From Chloroflexota bacterium (GTDB lineage: Bacteria > Chloroflexota > Anaerolineae > Anaerolineales > Anaerolineaceae): 64,000 nucleotides of DNA. Every line of letters begins with the position of its first letter. Position 1 is the stretch's first letter. Where the stretch lies: positions 1 to 64,000 of the forward strand of contig JAEKNU010000005.1 in assembly GCA_016838895.1 (NCBI GenBank), read 5' to 3'. Below, one piece after another: positions 16,298 through 23,752 of this stretch. Under the pieces are notes generated by a model, which saw only the letters and a list, made by a program, of their open reading frames with translations, was not told the DNA's origin and did not search any database. The position numbers and the translations under genes were made by a program.

Positions 16298-19207
16298 TTA
16301 TTTATGTAAATTTTTCCAAACACGTTCTGGTGTTAGCGGCAAGTCTCGCATCCAGACACCTGTCGCATGATAAATTGCATTCACGATAGATGGCGCTACA
16401 CCATCAATAGAAATTTCCGATATGGATTTTGCACCAAATGGCCCGGTACTTTCATCTGTTTGCACGAAAATCACATCCATTGGCGGCATGTCATTGGAAC
16501 TGTACGTATGATAATCCTTCAGGCGAGCGTTTAACATTTTGCCATTCGCATCAAAAATTGAATCTTCACTCAATGTAAAGCCAATGCCCTGCTGTAAACC
16601 GCCTTCTACCTGACCACTGGCAGTGATTGGATTAATTACTCGACCGCAATCCACAATCATTAGTAATCGATCGATCTTAACCTCACCTGTTTCCGTGTCA
16701 ACTGTGATCTCAGCAAATTGGGCCGCGGTCGGTGGTGGGCTGCTCAAACTGAAATGTGAAGCGGTTGTCATAATTTGATGTTGATTTAAATTATGCAGAC
16801 TGCTTAGCGCGATATCTTCATATGTAATCATACGGCCATCCGCAGTTTTTACTTTTTTATCGCCAACTTCCAAACCAGTTGTATCGGGTAAATCCAACAT
16901 CGTTGCGGCATGTTCCAGAATTTGCTGCTTGATTTGTTCTGCCGCTTTCTTCACGGCACCGCCAGAAATATAGGTAGTACTACTTGCATAAGCACCGGTA
17001 TCAAACGGCGTAAAATCTGTGTCGGCCGTGTACACAATGAAATCATTCACTGGTACCTGAAGCACTTCAGCTGCAATCTGCGCCAAAATTGTATCAGATC
17101 CTGTTCCCAGATCCGTGGCACCCATTTGCAAGTTGAAGGAACCATCATCATTCATCTTGATCGTAGCAGCCGCCATATCCAGCCCAGCCACACCACTACC
17201 ATGGAAGACAACGGCCATGCCAATTCCTTTACGAATTATGCCACTCTGGTTCTCATACAGTTTTCGTTTATTGTAATAATCTGTTGCCTTTAAACCAATG
17301 GCCACACAGGCGTCCATACCGCTGGTTTCCATCATCTGATCAATACCTTCACGGCCTTCGCCCAATTGCTTGGCCATGTGCATTGGTTCGCCAATTTTGA
17401 TCCAGTTTTTGCGTTTGAATTCAACTACATCCAGATTCAATTTATCAGCAATCTCTGCCATTAATACTTCAATGGCATATTCACATTGCATACTGCCATA
17501 CCCACGATAAGCGCCCGCTGGAGGAGTGTTCGTATATACCACATCACATGTAAATCGAGCGTTATAGGGGTTATATAGCGTTAATCCTTTGAAACCGCCT
17601 ACCATTTGCACGGTAAGCCCATGTGAGCCATACGCACCAGTATCACCAATCAGATTCATATCGATACCAGTCACAATTTCATCTTTAATAGCGACCTTGT
17701 AAGTAATAATCTGCGGATGCCGACTGCGGGAGCTGATAAATTCCTGTTTACGTGAGTATTCCATGCGTACTGGTCGACCTGTTGCAATCGTGAGGTGACC
17801 ACACATATCTTCCATGATAATCTCTTGCTTTCCACCAAATCCACCGCCTAGTCGAGGTTTTATGACTCTGATCCTCTTTACAGGCAAACCCAACAATGGT
17901 GCCACAATGCGTCGGGCATGATAAGGTACTTGCGTACTACTGCGCAGAACCAAACGCTCATCTTCATCCCAATAGGATATACAAACATGGGGTTCCATCT
18001 GCGCATGCTGCTGTTTTGGCGTACGATACGTTCCCTCAAAGACATGGTCAGCATCTTTCAACGCTTGATCCACATCACCATGACTCGCTTCAATATGATA
18101 GACAATGTTATGTTTGGGATCAAAAACACCTTCGGTGTCTTCTTCATCATGAATCACTGGCGCACCATCTTTCATGGCTTCTTCCGCGGTCAGAGCAGCA
18201 GGCAGTACTTCATATTCAACTTTTATTAAACGCATTGCTTCTTCGGCCAGTTCAGGTGTTTCCGCTGCAACCAGGGCAACTCGATCTCCCACATGGCGAA
18301 CTTTATTATCCAGTGAGGCCTGATCATATGGCAGCGGCTGTGGATAACTTTGCCCACCTGAAGCATATTTTACTCGTTCGATATCCTGGTATGTAAGAAC
18401 TGCTTCAACACCTGGCAGGGCTTTTGCTCTACTGGTGTCAATATCCTTGATTATTGCATGAGCATGCGGACTGGTTAATAATGCGCCGTATAACATTCCT
18501 TCTAGTTTGAAATCATCAGTAAACACTGGTTTTCCCATGGCGAGTTTTTTTGCGTCTACTTTGATTTCCGCTTGCCCAACAAAGTCAGTATCTTTCATGC
18601 TGGCCGGTGTATATACAATTGGCAGCAATGTTTCTTGTGCGTTATCCTTTCTAAAATATGCTTCGGGGATATTGATATCCTTGAGGTTATCATTCAATAC
18701 GAAATGTTCCACAACAGGCACACCAGTTGGTTGCTCCTGCATATATTTCGAGGCCATATGAACAGCATCAATAATCCGAACATAACCTGTACAGCGGCAC
18801 TGTACACCGCTAATTGCATTCCGGATTTCTGTATCAGTTGGATTTTTATCACGATCCAGTAATGCCTTCACGGTTAAAATCTGTGCAGGGGTGCAGAATC
18901 CACATTGAATCGCCCCGGATTCCATGAATGCTTTCTGAATAATATGTGGCGTATTGCCGTCAGATATGCCTTCTAGTGTGATGATATTTTTTCCAGTAAT
19001 TTCTGATAATTTCAACATACAGGATCGTACAGGATTTCCGTTTACCAAAACGGTACACATGCCGCAATCGCCTTCTCGGCAGCCATTTTTTACACTATAC
19101 AGCGATTTAGATCGCAGATAATCTAACAGTGTTTGTTTCGGATTCAAGGATTCATCGACAGATGTGCCATTTAATGTGAATTGAATCATCTTGCTTTCAG
19201 ATTTCAT
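16298..19207 (-). CDS. Molybdenum hydroxylase (xanthine dehydrogenase family), fused 2Fe-2S and Mo subunits
   Basis: The 969-residue product fuses two usually separate subunits. Residues 5-85 are a plant-type 2Fe-2S domain (Cys43, Cys48, Cys51, Cys63), and residues 90-155 the second 2Fe-2S domain (Cys102, Cys105, Cys137, Cys139). From about residue 210 on is the molybdopterin subunit: DDFKLEGMLYGALLTSPHAH, LGGGFGGKQE, GAYRGYGSMQCEYAIE, and the C-terminal PFGAKSISEISIDGVAPS with the Glu expected as the catalytic base. The substrate is an N-heterocycle, purine or aldehyde; it cannot be read from the sequence. Its start overlaps the FAD-subunit-like gene by one base (TGATG). No XdhC-type maturation gene is in the window. 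Confidence 0.92.
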   Translation of the reverse strand: MKSESKMIQFTLNGTSVDESLNPKQTLLDYLRSKSLYSVKNGCREGDCGMCTVLVNGNPVRSCMLKLSEITGKNIITLEGISDGNTPHIIQKAFMESGAIQCGFCTPAQILTVKALLDRDKNPTDTEIRNAISGVQCRCTGYVRIIDAVHMASKYMQEQPTGVPVVEHFVLNDNLKDINIPEAYFRKDNAQETLLPIVYTPASMKDTDFVGQAEIKVDAKKLAMGKPVFTDDFKLEGMLYGALLTSPHAHAIIKDIDTSRAKALPGVEAVLTYQDIERVKYASGGQSYPQPLPYDQASLDNKVRHVGDRVALVAAETPELAEEAMRLIKVEYEVLPAALTAEEAMKDGAPVIHDEEDTEGVFDPKHNIVYHIEASHGDVDQALKDADHVFEGTYRTPKQQHAQMEPHVCISYWDEDERLVLRSSTQVPYHARRIVAPLLGLPVKRIRVIKPRLGGGFGGKQEIIMEDMCGHLTIATGRPVRMEYSRKQEFISSRSRHPQIITYKVAIKDEIVTGIDMNLIGDTGAYGSHGLTVQMVGGFKGLTLYNPYNARFTCDVVYTNTPPAGAYRGYGSMQCEYAIEVLMAEIADKLNLDVVEFKRKNWIKIGEPMHMAKQLGEGREGIDQMMETSGMDACVAIGLKATDYYNKRKLYENQSGIIRKGIGMAVVFHGSGVAGLDMAAATIKMNDDGSFNLQMGATDLGTGSDTILAQIAAEVLQVPVNDFIVYTADTDFTPFDTGAYASSTTYISGGAVKKAAEQIKQQILEHAATMLDLPDTTGLEVGDKKVKTADGRMITYEDIALSSLHNLNQHQIMTTASHFSLSSPPPTAAQFAEITVDTETGEVKIDRLLMIVDCGRVINPITASGQVEGGLQQGIGFTLSEDSIFDANGKMLNARLKDYHTYSSNDMPPMDVIFVQTDESTGPFGAKSISEISIDGVAPSIVNAIYHATGVWMRDLPLTPERVWKNLHK

Positions 19208-19899
19208 CAGGCCACCTCACCTTGTGTTAAGCATGCGGATAATGATCTTTGTGTCAGGCATTTTGCCATTTCGATACGATATTCAGCACTTGCCTGAAAA
19301 TTAGTTACAGGTTCAATCTCTTTTAAAATGCTGTCAATTACCTTGCTAATTTGCTCGTCTGATAAAGATTTTCCTATTAGTAAATCAGCACTTTTAACCA
19401 GAGCCAATTTATTGCGCCATGTTCCAGTAATCGCAATTCGGGCGTCCTTTACAATTTCGCCGTCCATTTCCATGAAAGCACAGATAGATACTGTCGGCAA
19501 ACTGGCTGGGGTTGGACGAACAGCCTGATAACACATCCTGCCATTTCTAAATTCAATCGGAATTAGTAATCCTACTGCTGCCCCTGATCCATTTATTCTT
19601 TTTTTCATAAATTCGGGGATTGATTTTCTAGCTTCATCCGGGAAAATTACCTGCGCCCCAACTGCCATCAAGGTCGCCACCCATGGATATGTACTGCCAG
19701 GAGACAGTATTGAACGTTCGACTGTTAATTCTGAACGAATTTGCCAGTTGATACCATCTTGCAATGTTTGATAATAAATTTCCGGTAAATCGGTCATTGT
19801 CGAAATTTCTTCCAAAATGACGTCCAGTCCGGTGTATAGATACTTCTTTCCATTCAAATCATGTTTGCTAAGGGAATCTCGAGTCATCATGAATTCCAT
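19207..19899 (-). CDS. Shortened FAD-subunit-like protein of the molybdenum hydroxylase
   Basis: The C-terminal half (about 115-225) matches the flavoprotein C-terminal domain of CoxM/XdhB-type subunits: YQAVRPTPASLPTVSICAFM, DARIAITGTWRNK, and the helical end. Residues 65-110 fit the second half of the FAD-binding region (SPGSTYPWVATLMAVGAQV). The first FAD-binding lobe with its AGGT dinucleotide motif is missing: canonical subunits are about 280-300 residues, this one is 230. The start looks real, with GAGGAG three bases before ATG 19899, and I see no frameshifted missing part in the 167 bases upstream. It may be a structural partner that no longer binds FAD, or a divergent form. Confidence 0.75.
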   Translation of the reverse strand: MEFMMTRDSLSKHDLNGKKYLYTGLDVILEEISTMTDLPEIYYQTLQDGINWQIRSELTVERSILSPGSTYPWVATLMAVGAQVIFPDEARKSIPEFMKKRINGSGAAVGLLIPIEFRNGRMCYQAVRPTPASLPTVSICAFMEMDGEIVKDARIAITGTWRNKLALVKSADLLIGKSLSDEQISKVIDSILKEIEPVTNFQASAEYRIEMAKCLTQRSLSACLTQGEVA

Positions 19900-20054
19900 T
19901 TTCTCCTCACAATCCTTTAAATTGATTGGTTATTTTGCCGAATTCTATTGATTTTAACTTCATAATCTACTTTTTATTGTACAGAGCAAAGCAAAGAAAC
20001 TCAAGAAATATTATTTGTCTGACAACTATATTTATAGCATAACTTCAGTGCAAA

Positions 20055-20644: not shown

Positions 20645-20675
20645 GAAACTATGCTGAATAAGTATGGAGGGAATC

Positions 20676-21101
20676 ATGAAATCCAAATCTGATAATACTG
20701 ATGGTACGATATACAAATCGCCAATATTGCGATTCATTGTTTTCTTGTTTTTTGTCTTTATTCCGTTTCAAATTTTCCTGATATATTTTATTCAACAAAT
20801 ATCTGTACGTCTGCATATACAAAAGCAAATTACTGCACCCAAAAAACCAACGCAAACTCCTCAAAAAAAGAAGATTCAATCACCCCGTGCTGCGGCAGTC
20901 AAAAAAAAATCTCAAGATGATTTACAGTTAATCTCCGGAATTGGGCCAAAAACACGTGAAGCCATGAATAATCACGGCATTACAACTTATACACAAATTG
21001 CTGATTTGAAGCTGGATCAACTGAATCAATTATTGGAAGAAGCTGGTATTCGTATAAAAGCAACTCAATCATGGATTGATCAAGCCAAACAATTAAAATA
21101 G
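20676..21101 (+). CDS. Membrane-anchored helix-hairpin-helix protein
   Basis: The 141-residue protein has one membrane helix (about 14-42, very Phe/Ile-rich), a Lys/Pro/Gln-rich linker, and a C-terminal domain from about 85 with LQLISGIGPKTREAMNNHGI and LDQLNQLLEEAGIRI. This is a helix-hairpin-helix fold as in DUF4332-like or ribosomal-protein-fused HhH domains that bind DNA or other proteins. The start at 20676 has GGAGGG five bases upstream; ATG 20664 lies before it. The topology suggests the HhH domain is at the cytoplasmic face. Function unknown. Confidence 0.75.
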   Translation: MKSKSDNTDGTIYKSPILRFIVFLFFVFIPFQIFLIYFIQQISVRLHIQKQITAPKKPTQTPQKKKIQSPRAAAVKKKSQDDLQLISGIGPKTREAMNNHGITTYTQIADLKLDQLNQLLEEAGIRIKATQSWIDQAKQLK

Positions 21102-21534: not shown

Positions 21535-22662
21535 ATGAGCACAGAACGACAAGATAGTGCAAAAAAATATGCCAAACAAAAACGTTGGGTATTCATTCTT
21601 GATTTCTTAATTAATGGATTTGTAGCCCTGATCTGGGTCTTTTCTGGTTTTTCAATTTGGCTCCGTGAATTCATTTCCCTTAATAATTTTCCTCTTATCG
21701 TCACAAATGGACTTTTTATTCTTGTATACGGATTTGTGGCTTTCGTCATCTCATCACCACTTACCTATTATTCTGAATTCCTATTACCCAAAAGATATGA
21801 ACTATCACATGAACGTCTCTCATCCTGGCTTACTGATCAGACAAAAAGTTTGGCAATTTCCGGTGCGATTGGTATTCCATTGCTGTTGCTGATCTATTGG
21901 TTTTTATCAATCGCCCCGCAAACATGGTGGATTTGGGCAGCAGCCATTGTTGTAACCATCAGTGTCCTTTTTGCAAATTTATATCCGGTTCTGATTGCGC
22001 CAATATTCAACAAATTTGTTCCCCTTGCGGATCAGCATAACGAATTAGAACAGAAATTGACCAATCTGGCACGACAAGCCAACACTCATGTTGCCGGCGT
22101 CTTCCAATTCGATATGAGTCGTCGAACAAAAACAGCCAATGCCGCCTTGATGGGCTTTTCAAATACAAAGCGTATTGTTTTAAGTGATACGATTTTGGAA
22201 AATTACACAGATGATGAAATCGAAACCATTCTGGCGCATGAATTGGCCCATCATGTTCACAATGATTTGCCACTTTCCATACTGGTAAACTCAGTGATCA
22301 TTATTTTGACATTTTTCCTGGCATCTTTTGGATTACAGTGGGGAATACATTTTTTCAACTTCGCGTCCATATCAGATATTGCCAATTTGCCCTTACTTGA
22401 GATCATTTTTGGTTTATTCAGCATATTGGTGTTTCCCATTCAGAATACTTTTTCTCGGATTCTTGAGAAACGAGCTGACACATACGCCCTTAAAATAACC
22501 AATAAACCAATTCCATTTGCAACTGCATTGACAAAATTATCAGATCAAAACCTTGCTGAACTGGATCCGGACCCATGGATTGAATTTTTTATGCATTCTC
22601 ACCCTTCGATATCCAAACGTATTTTAATGGCCGAGCAATATGCGGAAAACCAAAATGAATAA
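21535..22662 (+). CDS. M48 family (Ste24-like) membrane metallopeptidase
   Basis: The 375-residue protein has membrane helices around 20-42, 55-75, 107-127, 131-152, 247-268 and 285-303. The zinc site is HELAHH (His235, Glu236, His239) with the third ligand Glu311 in LEKRADTYAL, as in Ste24/HtpX-type M48 enzymes, and the N-terminal M48_N region is present. Ste24-like enzymes degrade or process membrane proteins; bacteria have no obvious CAAX substrates. GGGACAGG precedes the ATG. Its end overlaps the next gene by eight bases (ATGAATAA), so the two are translationally linked. Confidence 0.9.
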   Translation: MSTERQDSAKKYAKQKRWVFILDFLINGFVALIWVFSGFSIWLREFISLNNFPLIVTNGLFILVYGFVAFVISSPLTYYSEFLLPKRYELSHERLSSWLTDQTKSLAISGAIGIPLLLLIYWFLSIAPQTWWIWAAAIVVTISVLFANLYPVLIAPIFNKFVPLADQHNELEQKLTNLARQANTHVAGVFQFDMSRRTKTANAALMGFSNTKRIVLSDTILENYTDDEIETILAHELAHHVHNDLPLSILVNSVIIILTFFLASFGLQWGIHFFNFASISDIANLPLLEIIFGLFSILVFPIQNTFSRILEKRADTYALKITNKPIPFATALTKLSDQNLAELDPDPWIEFFMHSHPSISKRILMAEQYAENQNE

Positions 22663-23752
22663 ATACTCATTCGCCTATTTAATCACATCACATGGTTTTG
22701 GACACGCATCTCGTGCATGTGCAGTGATGCAAAGCCTGCAAAATAAAAGACCTGATATGCATTTCCATATATACACCACTATACCAGAGTGGTTTTTTAT
22801 TGAATCTGATATAAAATCTTTCACACTGCATCCCATGGAAACTGATATCGGATTAGTACAAACCTCCCCTTTTGAAATAGACTTCGATACGACATTATCA
22901 AAGCTTTCAAGTTTTTTTGAATCTTATAAACAACAAGTTGAACAATTATGTATAGAATTCCACAAACATGACATCAAAGCTGTACTCTGTGATATTGCTG
23001 TTTTGGGTATCTCCGCCGCTCAAAAATTGAAACTTCCAGTTTTTCTAATCGAAAATTTCACCTGGGATTGGATATACGAAGCCTATCAAAATGAATACCC
23101 TGCCTTTAAACCATTTGCAGATACAATCAGAAATAATATCAAAAAGGTCAAAAATCATTATCTCACTGAACCATTTTGCCAATACCCCCGCTCATTAAGT
23201 GCCATTGCCAAACCAATCAGTCGACCAGCCAAACAACCCGCTCATCTCACCAAAGAACGATTGGGTATTCCAGATACGCATAAAGTTGTGCTCTTGTCAT
23301 TGGGTGGTATACCTGATCAAATCCAAATTAACGCCTCATCCATGAATAAAACTGGGGTTACCTTTATTGTTCCGGGAATTGGACAGGAAATCCAAAAAAT
23401 TGAAAACACGCTATTTCTGCCCCATCATTCATCTTTTTATCATCCAGACCTGGTCGCATGTGCAGATGCCATTATCGCCAAAGTGGGCTACAGCACCATC
23501 GCAGAAGCATATGCCAGCAGAATTCCTATGGGCTATATCCCCCGATACGATTTTCCGGAATCAAAATTTCTGTCAGCCTATAGTAGAGATAAACTGTGCG
23601 GTGTTGAAATAAAACTAAATGAATTTTTATCGGGTCGGTGGACTGAGAAAATTGATCAAATATTGCAAACCTCATTGGATCAATCAGAAGTGCTTAATGG
23701 CGCGGAACAAATTAGTGAATGGATCCTGAATGGCGTTTCCCTTAATCAATAA
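22655..23752 (+). CDS. Glycosyltransferase-like protein related to the N-terminal domain of plant L-arabinokinase
   Basis: The 365-residue protein has a GT-B-like layout with ITSHGFGHASRACAVMQSL at the N-terminus, VLCDIAVLGISAAQKL, the distinctive LIENFTWDWIYEAY, then VVLLSLGGIPDQIQ and ADAIIAKVGYSTIAEAYASR in the C-terminal half. The GHGFGHxxR and NFSWDFIYAEY-type motifs are those of the glycosyltransferase-like domain fused to the sugar kinase in plant arabinokinase; the kinase part is absent. The C-terminal GYSTIAEA segment is the nucleotide-sugar site of MurG-like enzymes. Donor and acceptor are unknown. I use ATG 22655, inside the M48 stop, rather than TTG/ATG at 22640. Confidence 0.75.
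   Translation: MNKYSFAYLITSHGFGHASRACAVMQSLQNKRPDMHFHIYTTIPEWFFIESDIKSFTLHPMETDIGLVQTSPFEIDFDTTLSKLSSFFESYKQQVEQLCIEFHKHDIKAVLCDIAVLGISAAQKLKLPVFLIENFTWDWIYEAYQNEYPAFKPFADTIRNNIKKVKNHYLTEPFCQYPRSLSAIAKPISRPAKQPAHLTKERLGIPDTHKVVLLSLGGIPDQIQINASSMNKTGVTFIVPGIGQEIQKIENTLFLPHHSSFYHPDLVACADAIIAKVGYSTIAEAYASRIPMGYIPRYDFPESKFLSAYSRDKLCGVEIKLNEFLSGRWTEKIDQILQTSLDQSEVLNGAEQISEWILNGVSLNQ

Follow-up and report, generated by a model that had tools for sequence, protein, structure and literature searches.

A conserved molybdenum hydroxylase of Chloroflexota whose FAD subunit appears to have lost its flavin site

The cofactors of a standard molybdenum hydroxylase form a linear chain of Mo, two Fe-S clusters, and flavin adenine dinucleotide (FAD). 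What becomes of the electrons when the last link of this chain is missing? The question is raised by a locus in the window, i.e., the whole stretch of 64,000 nucleotides that was analyzed (Chloroflexota bacterium, GenBank assembly GCA_016838895.1, contig JAEKNU010000005.1, positions 1 to 64,000). Its minus strand carries a gene for an M (FAD) subunit of only 230 amino acids (aa), which is followed by the gene for a fused 2Fe-2S/molybdopterin subunit. The initial annotation, made from the letters alone, had described the M subunit as lacking the first FAD-binding lobe and being 50-60 residues short, and had concluded that, if it binds no FAD, the electrons must leave the Fe-S clusters by another acceptor. 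The features of the locus are as follows.

16298-19207, minus strand: fused 2Fe-2S/molybdopterin subunit, 969 aa (list of open reading frames (ORFs), Pfam, NCBIfam, PDB alignment)
19207-19899, minus strand: short M subunit, 230 aa, with the middle and C-terminal domains of an FAD subunit and no N-terminal FAD lobe (ORF list, Pfam, predicted structure)
19903-19908, minus strand: ribosome-binding site of the short subunit, GAGGAG (by eye)
19212-19217, minus strand: AGGTGG of the fused gene, resembling a ribosome-binding site (by eye)
19711-19725, minus strand: TVERS, residues 59-63 of the short subunit, at the position of the second FAD glycine motif, TIGGN (sequence and alignments)
19019-19081, minus strand: Cys 43, 48, 51, and 63 of the fused protein, ligands of the N-terminal [2Fe-2S] cluster, intact (alignment)
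18791-18904, minus strand: Cys 102, 105, 137, and 139 of the fused protein, ligands of the second [2Fe-2S] cluster, intact (alignment)
16415-16417, minus strand: Glu931 of the fused protein, equivalent of the conserved catalytic Glu (alignment and a passage in PMC4726530)

The short ORF starts with ATG, and one base is common to its stop codon TGA (19209-19207) and the ATG of the fused gene (19207-19205). The ribosome-binding site and the one-base coupling mentioned in the initial annotation are thus indeed intact. The Pfam analysis of the short protein revealed CO_deh_flav_C (PF03450) at residues 132-220 with 54.6 bits (cut-off 25.5), but not FAD_binding_5 (PF00941). The protein is the M subunit of a xanthine-oxidase family enzyme, and of the hallmarks of CoxM/XdhB-type FAD subunits it has PF03450, but neither the AGGT lobe (PF00941) nor the TIGGN motif. 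The fused protein contains the domains Fer2, Fer2_2, Ald_Xan_dh_C, MoCoBD_1, and MoCoBD_2 (E-values of 1.4e-79 for MoCoBD_1, 4.5e-72 for MoCoBD_2, and 1.1e-28 for the a/b hammerhead). With its Mo domains, eight Fe-S cysteines, catalytic Glu, and Mo-loop motifs it is a member of the xanthine-oxidase (molybdenum hydroxylase) family. The N-terminal [2Fe-2S] cluster is presumably the one named cluster II, and the second one cluster I.

The extent of the loss was analyzed with an AlphaFold2 model of the short subunit, generated from a 36-row alignment (predicted local distance difference test score (pLDDT) 91.4, predicted template modeling score 0.90), and with fold comparisons using VIA-align. Residues 4-228 of the model superpose on residues 57-287 of CutM (1ffu_C; Z 24.9, root-mean-square deviation (rmsd) 2.9, 217 residues aligned). 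CoxM (1n60_C), KdhM (7dqx_E), and GAOR2 (4zoh_B) align to the model from their own residue 58 onward, and with all four subunits the fold is shared over 209-220 residues with Z-scores of 22.6-24.9. Because the match starts at residue 57 of CutM, the first 56 residues, which make up the AGGT lobe, are missing, a number within the range given in the initial annotation. A passage in PMC8305194 assigns residues 1-61 of KdhM to the N-terminal FAD domain with AGGQS and residues 62-172 to the middle domain with TIGG, while the C-terminal domain makes no contact to FAD. As the fold match starts where this N-terminal domain ends, the window protein is devoid of the whole first lobe. In addition, and unlike in CutM, CoxM, KdhM, and GAOR2, the second flavin motif is also lost, since TIGGN is replaced by TVERS, a point that was absent from the initial annotation.

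The initial annotation had proposed a homology search for equally short subunits paired with a fused partner. The search covered 101 relatives and 396 genomes of the class, and a contig collection was additionally scanned with one pattern; L-numbers are the locus labels of the relatives in this analysis. A profile built from ten of the short proteins yielded 33 distinct proteins scoring 160 bits or more, and the next score was 123 (160 and 122 for the class genomes alone). Thirty of the 33 are short subunits, including that of the window; the others are two full-length proteins (L086, L163) and a fusion (L153). In L153, which is cut by the contig end, the short M subunit is in frame with the Fe-S/Mo protein (1-2877), as read from a single draft contig in which a frameshift is possible. 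The 30 short subunits stem from about 28 genomes, if L070, L072, and L079 are counted as separate genomes, and in 30 of 30 loci the fused gene follows the short gene on the same strand. Most relatives are metagenome-assembled genomes, and one locus (L082, the same as L027) is from the cultured species Ornatilinea apprima P3M-1 (Anaerolineaceae). The short members found belong to Chloroflexota or the class of the window, and the matches from other phyla had 267-332 aa among the lengths listed (one of them, L138, is truncated at a contig end). The scan of the contig collection, with a single C-terminal pattern and 80 of 90 matches taken, says little about other phyla; a scan with the window protein alone yielded no match.

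The loss of the second motif is not restricted to the window. Whereas 62 of the 70 full-length subunits have its second Gly, only 1 of the 30 short ones does, and 22 of the latter have R or K at this position. Ahead of the motif, 24 of the 30 short proteins have 43-62 residues, versus 101-147 in 69 of the 70 full-length subunits (the seventieth, L138, being the one cut by its contig). The remaining six short proteins have longer ORFs with 74-134 residues before the motif. This was put down to an artifact of choosing the first start codon after a stop, and the lobe profile gave no match in these six ORFs. The loss of the first FAD lobe in the short subunits is thus strongly supported by alignments and model, and most likely the short subunit binds no FAD. 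Two other positions also differ (numbering of the window protein). Trp52 is found in 28 and Cys223 in 26 of the 30 short subunits; in the 70 full-length subunits, Cys occurs at position 223 in seven, and Trp is not among the three most common residues at position 52.

The lobe might have been removed by an artifact, or it might be hidden in another frame. The window genome is a draft of 162 contigs with an estimated contamination of 5.68%, and the initial annotation had named a sequencing error or an alternative upstream frame as points that would speak against its claim. Therefore, a profile of the lobe was run on six-frame translations, and for the short loci the complete genes together with as much as 1 kb of upstream sequence were read. 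At E<1e-3, the lobe was recovered from 51 of the 53 full-length loci, whereas the 30 short loci, among them that of the window, gave no such match (best E 0.2, L152). Twenty-nine of the short loci could be judged, all but L157, which begins right at the end of a contig; for L149, no more than 234 upstream bases were available. None of the 29 contained a lobe. Together with the existence of 29 other short homologues, this ruled out a frameshift, a misassembly, a sequencing error, or an upstream frame, and that one of the first two has removed the lobe in the window is extremely improbable. Two minor resemblances to the lobe were noted. An IQGGST near the N-terminus of L026 resembles the lost motif, but was taken as chance because the lobe profile misses it. 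PF00941 was found in 23 of the 36 rows of alignment A3, which has 22 full-length rows, so that at least one short row, which is not that of the window, keeps a weak match.

Next to the short subunits, the fused partners are well preserved. Twenty-seven of the 30 could be aligned (two of the others are truncated at contig ends, and L151 stops at 438 aa), and all 27 keep the eight Fe-S cysteines as well as the motifs GGGFG[GN]KQ, RGYG, and GTG[SA]DT; all 25 partners that extend far enough also have the catalytic Glu. In a carefully searched tree restricted to Mo-domain columns, the partners of the short subunits form one clade (100/100), and a group of eight around the window is supported with 100/98. 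L121, whose fused protein ends early (664 aa) and leaves the later motifs unaligned, and L146 were excluded from the trees. The ratios of nonsynonymous to synonymous substitutions (dN/dS, Nei-Gojobori) in six close pairs were 0.13-0.36 for the short subunits and 0.03-0.14 for the partners, indicating that both are under purifying selection, the short subunits less strictly; the pair L026/L027 is saturated, L160/L074 nearly so, and L069 and L159 include over-long starts. Taken together, both flavin motifs are lost, while the Fe-S ligands and the Mo-site motifs are intact, and this state is conserved throughout a clade under purifying selection.

These values also bear on the possibility that the complex is decaying or non-catalytic, so that the Mo protein has another role, such as storage or binding of the cofactor, and its partner is a vestige. 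The faster evolution of the short subunit and the repeated loss of Fe-S ligands in relatives (see below) would fit, but the retention of Fe-S ligands and Mo motifs in all 27 aligned partners and the low dN/dS of the Mo subunit in the six pairs make this explanation improbable.

We therefore favor, with a probability of roughly 55%, a two-gene molybdenum hydroxylase with an M subunit devoid of a flavin site, from which the electrons leave the Fe-S clusters to a soluble carrier. The substrate would be hydroxylated at the Mo site, and the electrons would pass from Mo to cluster I and on to cluster II; that they still take this route is suggested by the retention of every Fe-S ligand in the clade of the window. 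Without FAD, cluster II would directly reduce a soluble carrier of single electrons, either flavodoxin or ferredoxin, which might dock at the place vacated by the FAD lobe. The remaining M subunit would serve as a structural cap and probably still packs against the Fe-S domain. Both the formation of the complex and the identity of the carrier are inferred. An exit from cluster II to a soluble carrier is most likely by analogy to the aldehyde oxidoreductase of Desulfovibrio gigas, which, according to a passage in PMC10223205, has no flavin domain and uses flavodoxin in vitro. The genome of the window encodes flavodoxins (seven PF00258 matches, five above the cut-off) and also an XdhC maturation factor.

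The likeness to the D. gigas and D. desulfuricans enzymes (1sij, 1dgj) includes a single chain with two [2Fe-2S] domains and a Mo domain and no flavin domain. The best PDB match of the fused protein is the D. desulfuricans aldehyde oxidoreductase, nearly tied with 4-hydroxybenzoyl-CoA reductase (351 and 350 bits), and Glu931 corresponds to Glu869 of the D. gigas enzyme (passage in PMC4726530). In contrast to these enzymes, which have no flavin domain at all, the window locus keeps a coupled gene for a trimmed M subunit without flavin motifs, and a short M gene adjoins in 30 of 30 loci. Two NCBIfam models matched the fused protein below their cut-offs. The best-scoring model is NF043082 (XdhA xanthine dehydrogenase, 703.4 bits, below the cut-off of 780), and XdhA is the nearest named family from which a substrate could be suggested. 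Unlike in XdhABC, the Fe-S part is fused and the FAD lobe is absent. TIGR03313, which we take to be the XdhD/YgfN type, combines a fused 2Fe-2S/Mo chain with a separate FAD-subunit gene, as in the window, but the score of 684.7 bits is below the cut-off of 1101.9; the partner of this type has a full FAD domain.

Three observations weigh against the favored explanation. First, the short subunit exceeds its partner in dN/dS by a factor of about two to four. Second, 175 neighboring ORFs were clustered, and among the 14 largest clusters, which were inspected, no gene for an electron carrier or redox protein was recognized, although not every neighbor was annotated; none of these clusters was present in more than three loci, except for one that looks antisense (six loci). 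Third, sister proteins lack Fe-S clusters altogether, which is a misfit with a family that always exports electrons.

It could also be that FAD is supplied otherwise, either by a full-length M subunit from another operon or by a new mode of flavin binding of the short subunit. The window genome encodes five other PF00941 domains, with AGGT, AGAT, or LGGT as the first motif in these proteins, and M and S subunits serving two L subunits are described for Sulfolobus tokodaii in a passage of PMC4726530. However, all 30 loci have retained the short gene next to the fused one, and the short subunit would compete for the same site; moreover, the lobe is gone and the motif 2 glycine is replaced by R or K in 22 of 30 proteins. 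We regard this explanation as improbable.

The third of these observations, the loss of Fe-S clusters in sister proteins, was unexpected. The clade of L080, L086, L163, and L199 is the sister of the clade of the window, and the 31 rows together are supported with 99/99. All eight Fe-S cysteines of its fused proteins are replaced (DSDHSNDE, DSSASNDE, DTDQSTDE), while the Mo motifs are kept. Its M subunits are full-length, with SGGA or AGGA as motif 1 and an altered motif 2 (SIAEL, SVGES, SVMES); Glu at the motif 2 glycine is found in 7 of the 70 full-length M subunits, and the four members of this clade are among these seven. For the Fe-S-less domain of L080, the normal fold is still predicted (pLDDT 92.3; 1rm6_C: Z 24.7, rmsd 1.3, 154 residues aligned), and in one pair of Fe-S-less relatives the Mo protein has a dN/dS of 0.028. 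When the Fe-S-like domain of L080 was used as a query, each of the 30 best loci had at most one of the eight cysteines left; as the query (L166 in this set) itself is Fe-S-less, this set is biased toward such matches. All in all, seven or all eight cysteines are replaced in L080, L086, L163, and L199, in L196-L198, L200, and L208, and in L166-L195, with patterns such as STADSSDE and DSDHSNDE, and the Mo motifs are intact in those whose Mo domain was read (the sequence of L197 breaks off before the catalytic Glu). Cluster II alone is lost in L201, L202, L203, L038, L271, L283, and L285, and cluster I alone in L205 and L259-L262.

A less biased sample was obtained by searching 110 class genomes with the Mo-domain piece of a normal relative, L206 (E<=1e-80), although it is still drawn by similarity to one Mo domain. 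It contains 53 matches from 52 genomes, so that a genome with a match almost always has just one. Of the 48 proteins that could be classified, 32 have both clusters, eight neither (two of these keep one Cys), four lack cluster I, and four lack cluster II; the other five are cut by contig or region ends or incompletely aligned. An M gene was recognized upstream in 19 of the 53 cases, and the lobe-less type of M subunit accompanies at least five of the 53 proteins (window, L155, L160, L161, L162). On a carefully searched Mo-domain tree (50 rows, Mo columns only), the Fe-S states need at least four changes, and a single group of nine double-loss proteins, named after the tree had been seen, was rejected by the approximately unbiased (AU) test (p 0.0004). 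A quick tree of the Fe-S domain without the cysteine columns also needs four changes, but its well-supported branches require no more than a single origin of the double loss; in this tree, the L080 group is near the cluster-II-less group. The trees are unrooted, and the direction of loss assumes that the eight cysteines are ancestral. Thus, this group appears to have dismantled its electron-transfer chain more than once and to have kept the metal reaction site.

Two side observations were made on the relatives. Cys102 to Ser and Cys139 to Glu recur in separate loss groups, i.e., in both double-loss groups (L080, L086, L163, L199; L196-L198, L200, L208) and in the cluster-I-loss group (L205, L259-L262). 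The full-length M subunits of L036, L118, L121, L137, L146, and L206 have an altered AGGT (LVSTKP, LIVHPKP, LLGTYP, MFGPRL). The same six subunits keep the second glycine of motif 2.

The relatives require a change in one claim of the initial annotation. A transfer of the electrons to another acceptor than FAD is most likely, because 27 of 27 partners keep the eight cysteines, but that they "must" leave in this way is too strong, since related fused proteins have lost one or both clusters and yet have an intact Mo site in the cases that were read. Some branches of the fused-protein family may therefore do without an external exit of electrons. The reverse combination, FAD motifs present and Fe-S ligands gone, also occurs, e.g., in L196, L200, L272, and L273. 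Given distances of 13.5, 13.8, and 10.8 A between the successive cofactors of KdhLMS (passage in PMC8305194), electrons could hardly reach FAD in such proteins, and their Mo site must either be re-oxidized in another way or be inactive.

One such way would be a redox-neutral cycle, in which the Mo site hydroxylates one molecule and is re-oxidized by a second, oxygen-donating one, so that the electron chain is dispensable and decays piecewise. This would resemble a transhydroxylase or nitrite-reductase-like cycle. Section 9 of PMC10420851 argues that xanthine-oxidase-type sites can insert and abstract oxygen within one cycle, and names pyrogallol:phloroglucinol transhydroxylase as a precedent for a redox-neutral Mo cycle. 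The latter belongs to another Mo enzyme family, that of DMSO reductase, and is compared here only as a possible mode of working. The partial and complete cluster losses in a sample not chosen by Fe-S state, the retention of the Mo motifs and the catalytic Glu in Fe-S-less proteins, the rejection of a single origin of the double loss, the strong constraint on an Fe-S-less Mo protein, and the position of an Fe-S-less clade as sister of the clade of the window all point in this direction and make the redox-neutral cycle a live alternative. Nevertheless, for the window it is unlikely, as the eight cysteines in all 27 alignable partners suggest that the clusters are still in use in its clade, the starred branches of the Fe-S-domain tree force only one double-loss origin, and no substrate pair is known. 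Were the family redox-neutral as a whole, the loss in the window would amount to one step of a general dismantling. A more specific version is rather doubtful, namely that Anaerolineae have a xanthine-oxidase-type enzyme with transhydroxylase-like oxygen exchange that has discarded the FAD lobe, cluster I, cluster II, or both separately and has kept the Mo site under strong selection; if true, we know of no earlier member of this enzyme family with a closed cycle as its natural function.

Whether electron export, the reading that we prefer, or an internal cycle applies, the flavin-less-M clade and its cousins without one or both clusters represent a natural deletion series of the Mo/Fe-S/FAD chain. 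The series makes it testable which cofactors are really needed, where the electrons go, and whether a Mo site can run without electron export, and one of its members is in a cultured isolate, O. apprima. A flavin-free fused enzyme is already known (D. gigas type). In contrast, the matches listed from the open-access literature (titles and abstract openings) included neither flavin-less M subunits or Fe-S-less family members in Chloroflexota nor a conserved lobe-trimmed M subunit beside a fused enzyme or a graded Fe-S loss in one family.

The neighborhoods of the loci differ. In L029 (1-12001), the short M/Mo pair lies beside genes for an amidohydrolase, a creatininase-family protein, a RACo-type protein with a 2Fe-2S domain, and a Bmp-type transporter, perhaps a cluster for nitrogen compounds or purines. 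In L038 (251-4678), F420 genes (cofE, cofD, and cofC families) and a luciferase-like oxidoreductase adjoin the cluster-II-less Mo enzyme, to which F420 may be linked. The neighbors 20664-21101 and 22640-23752 are common to the window and the O. apprima locus (L027), and the former is also present in L026, which fits a vertical descent of the region.

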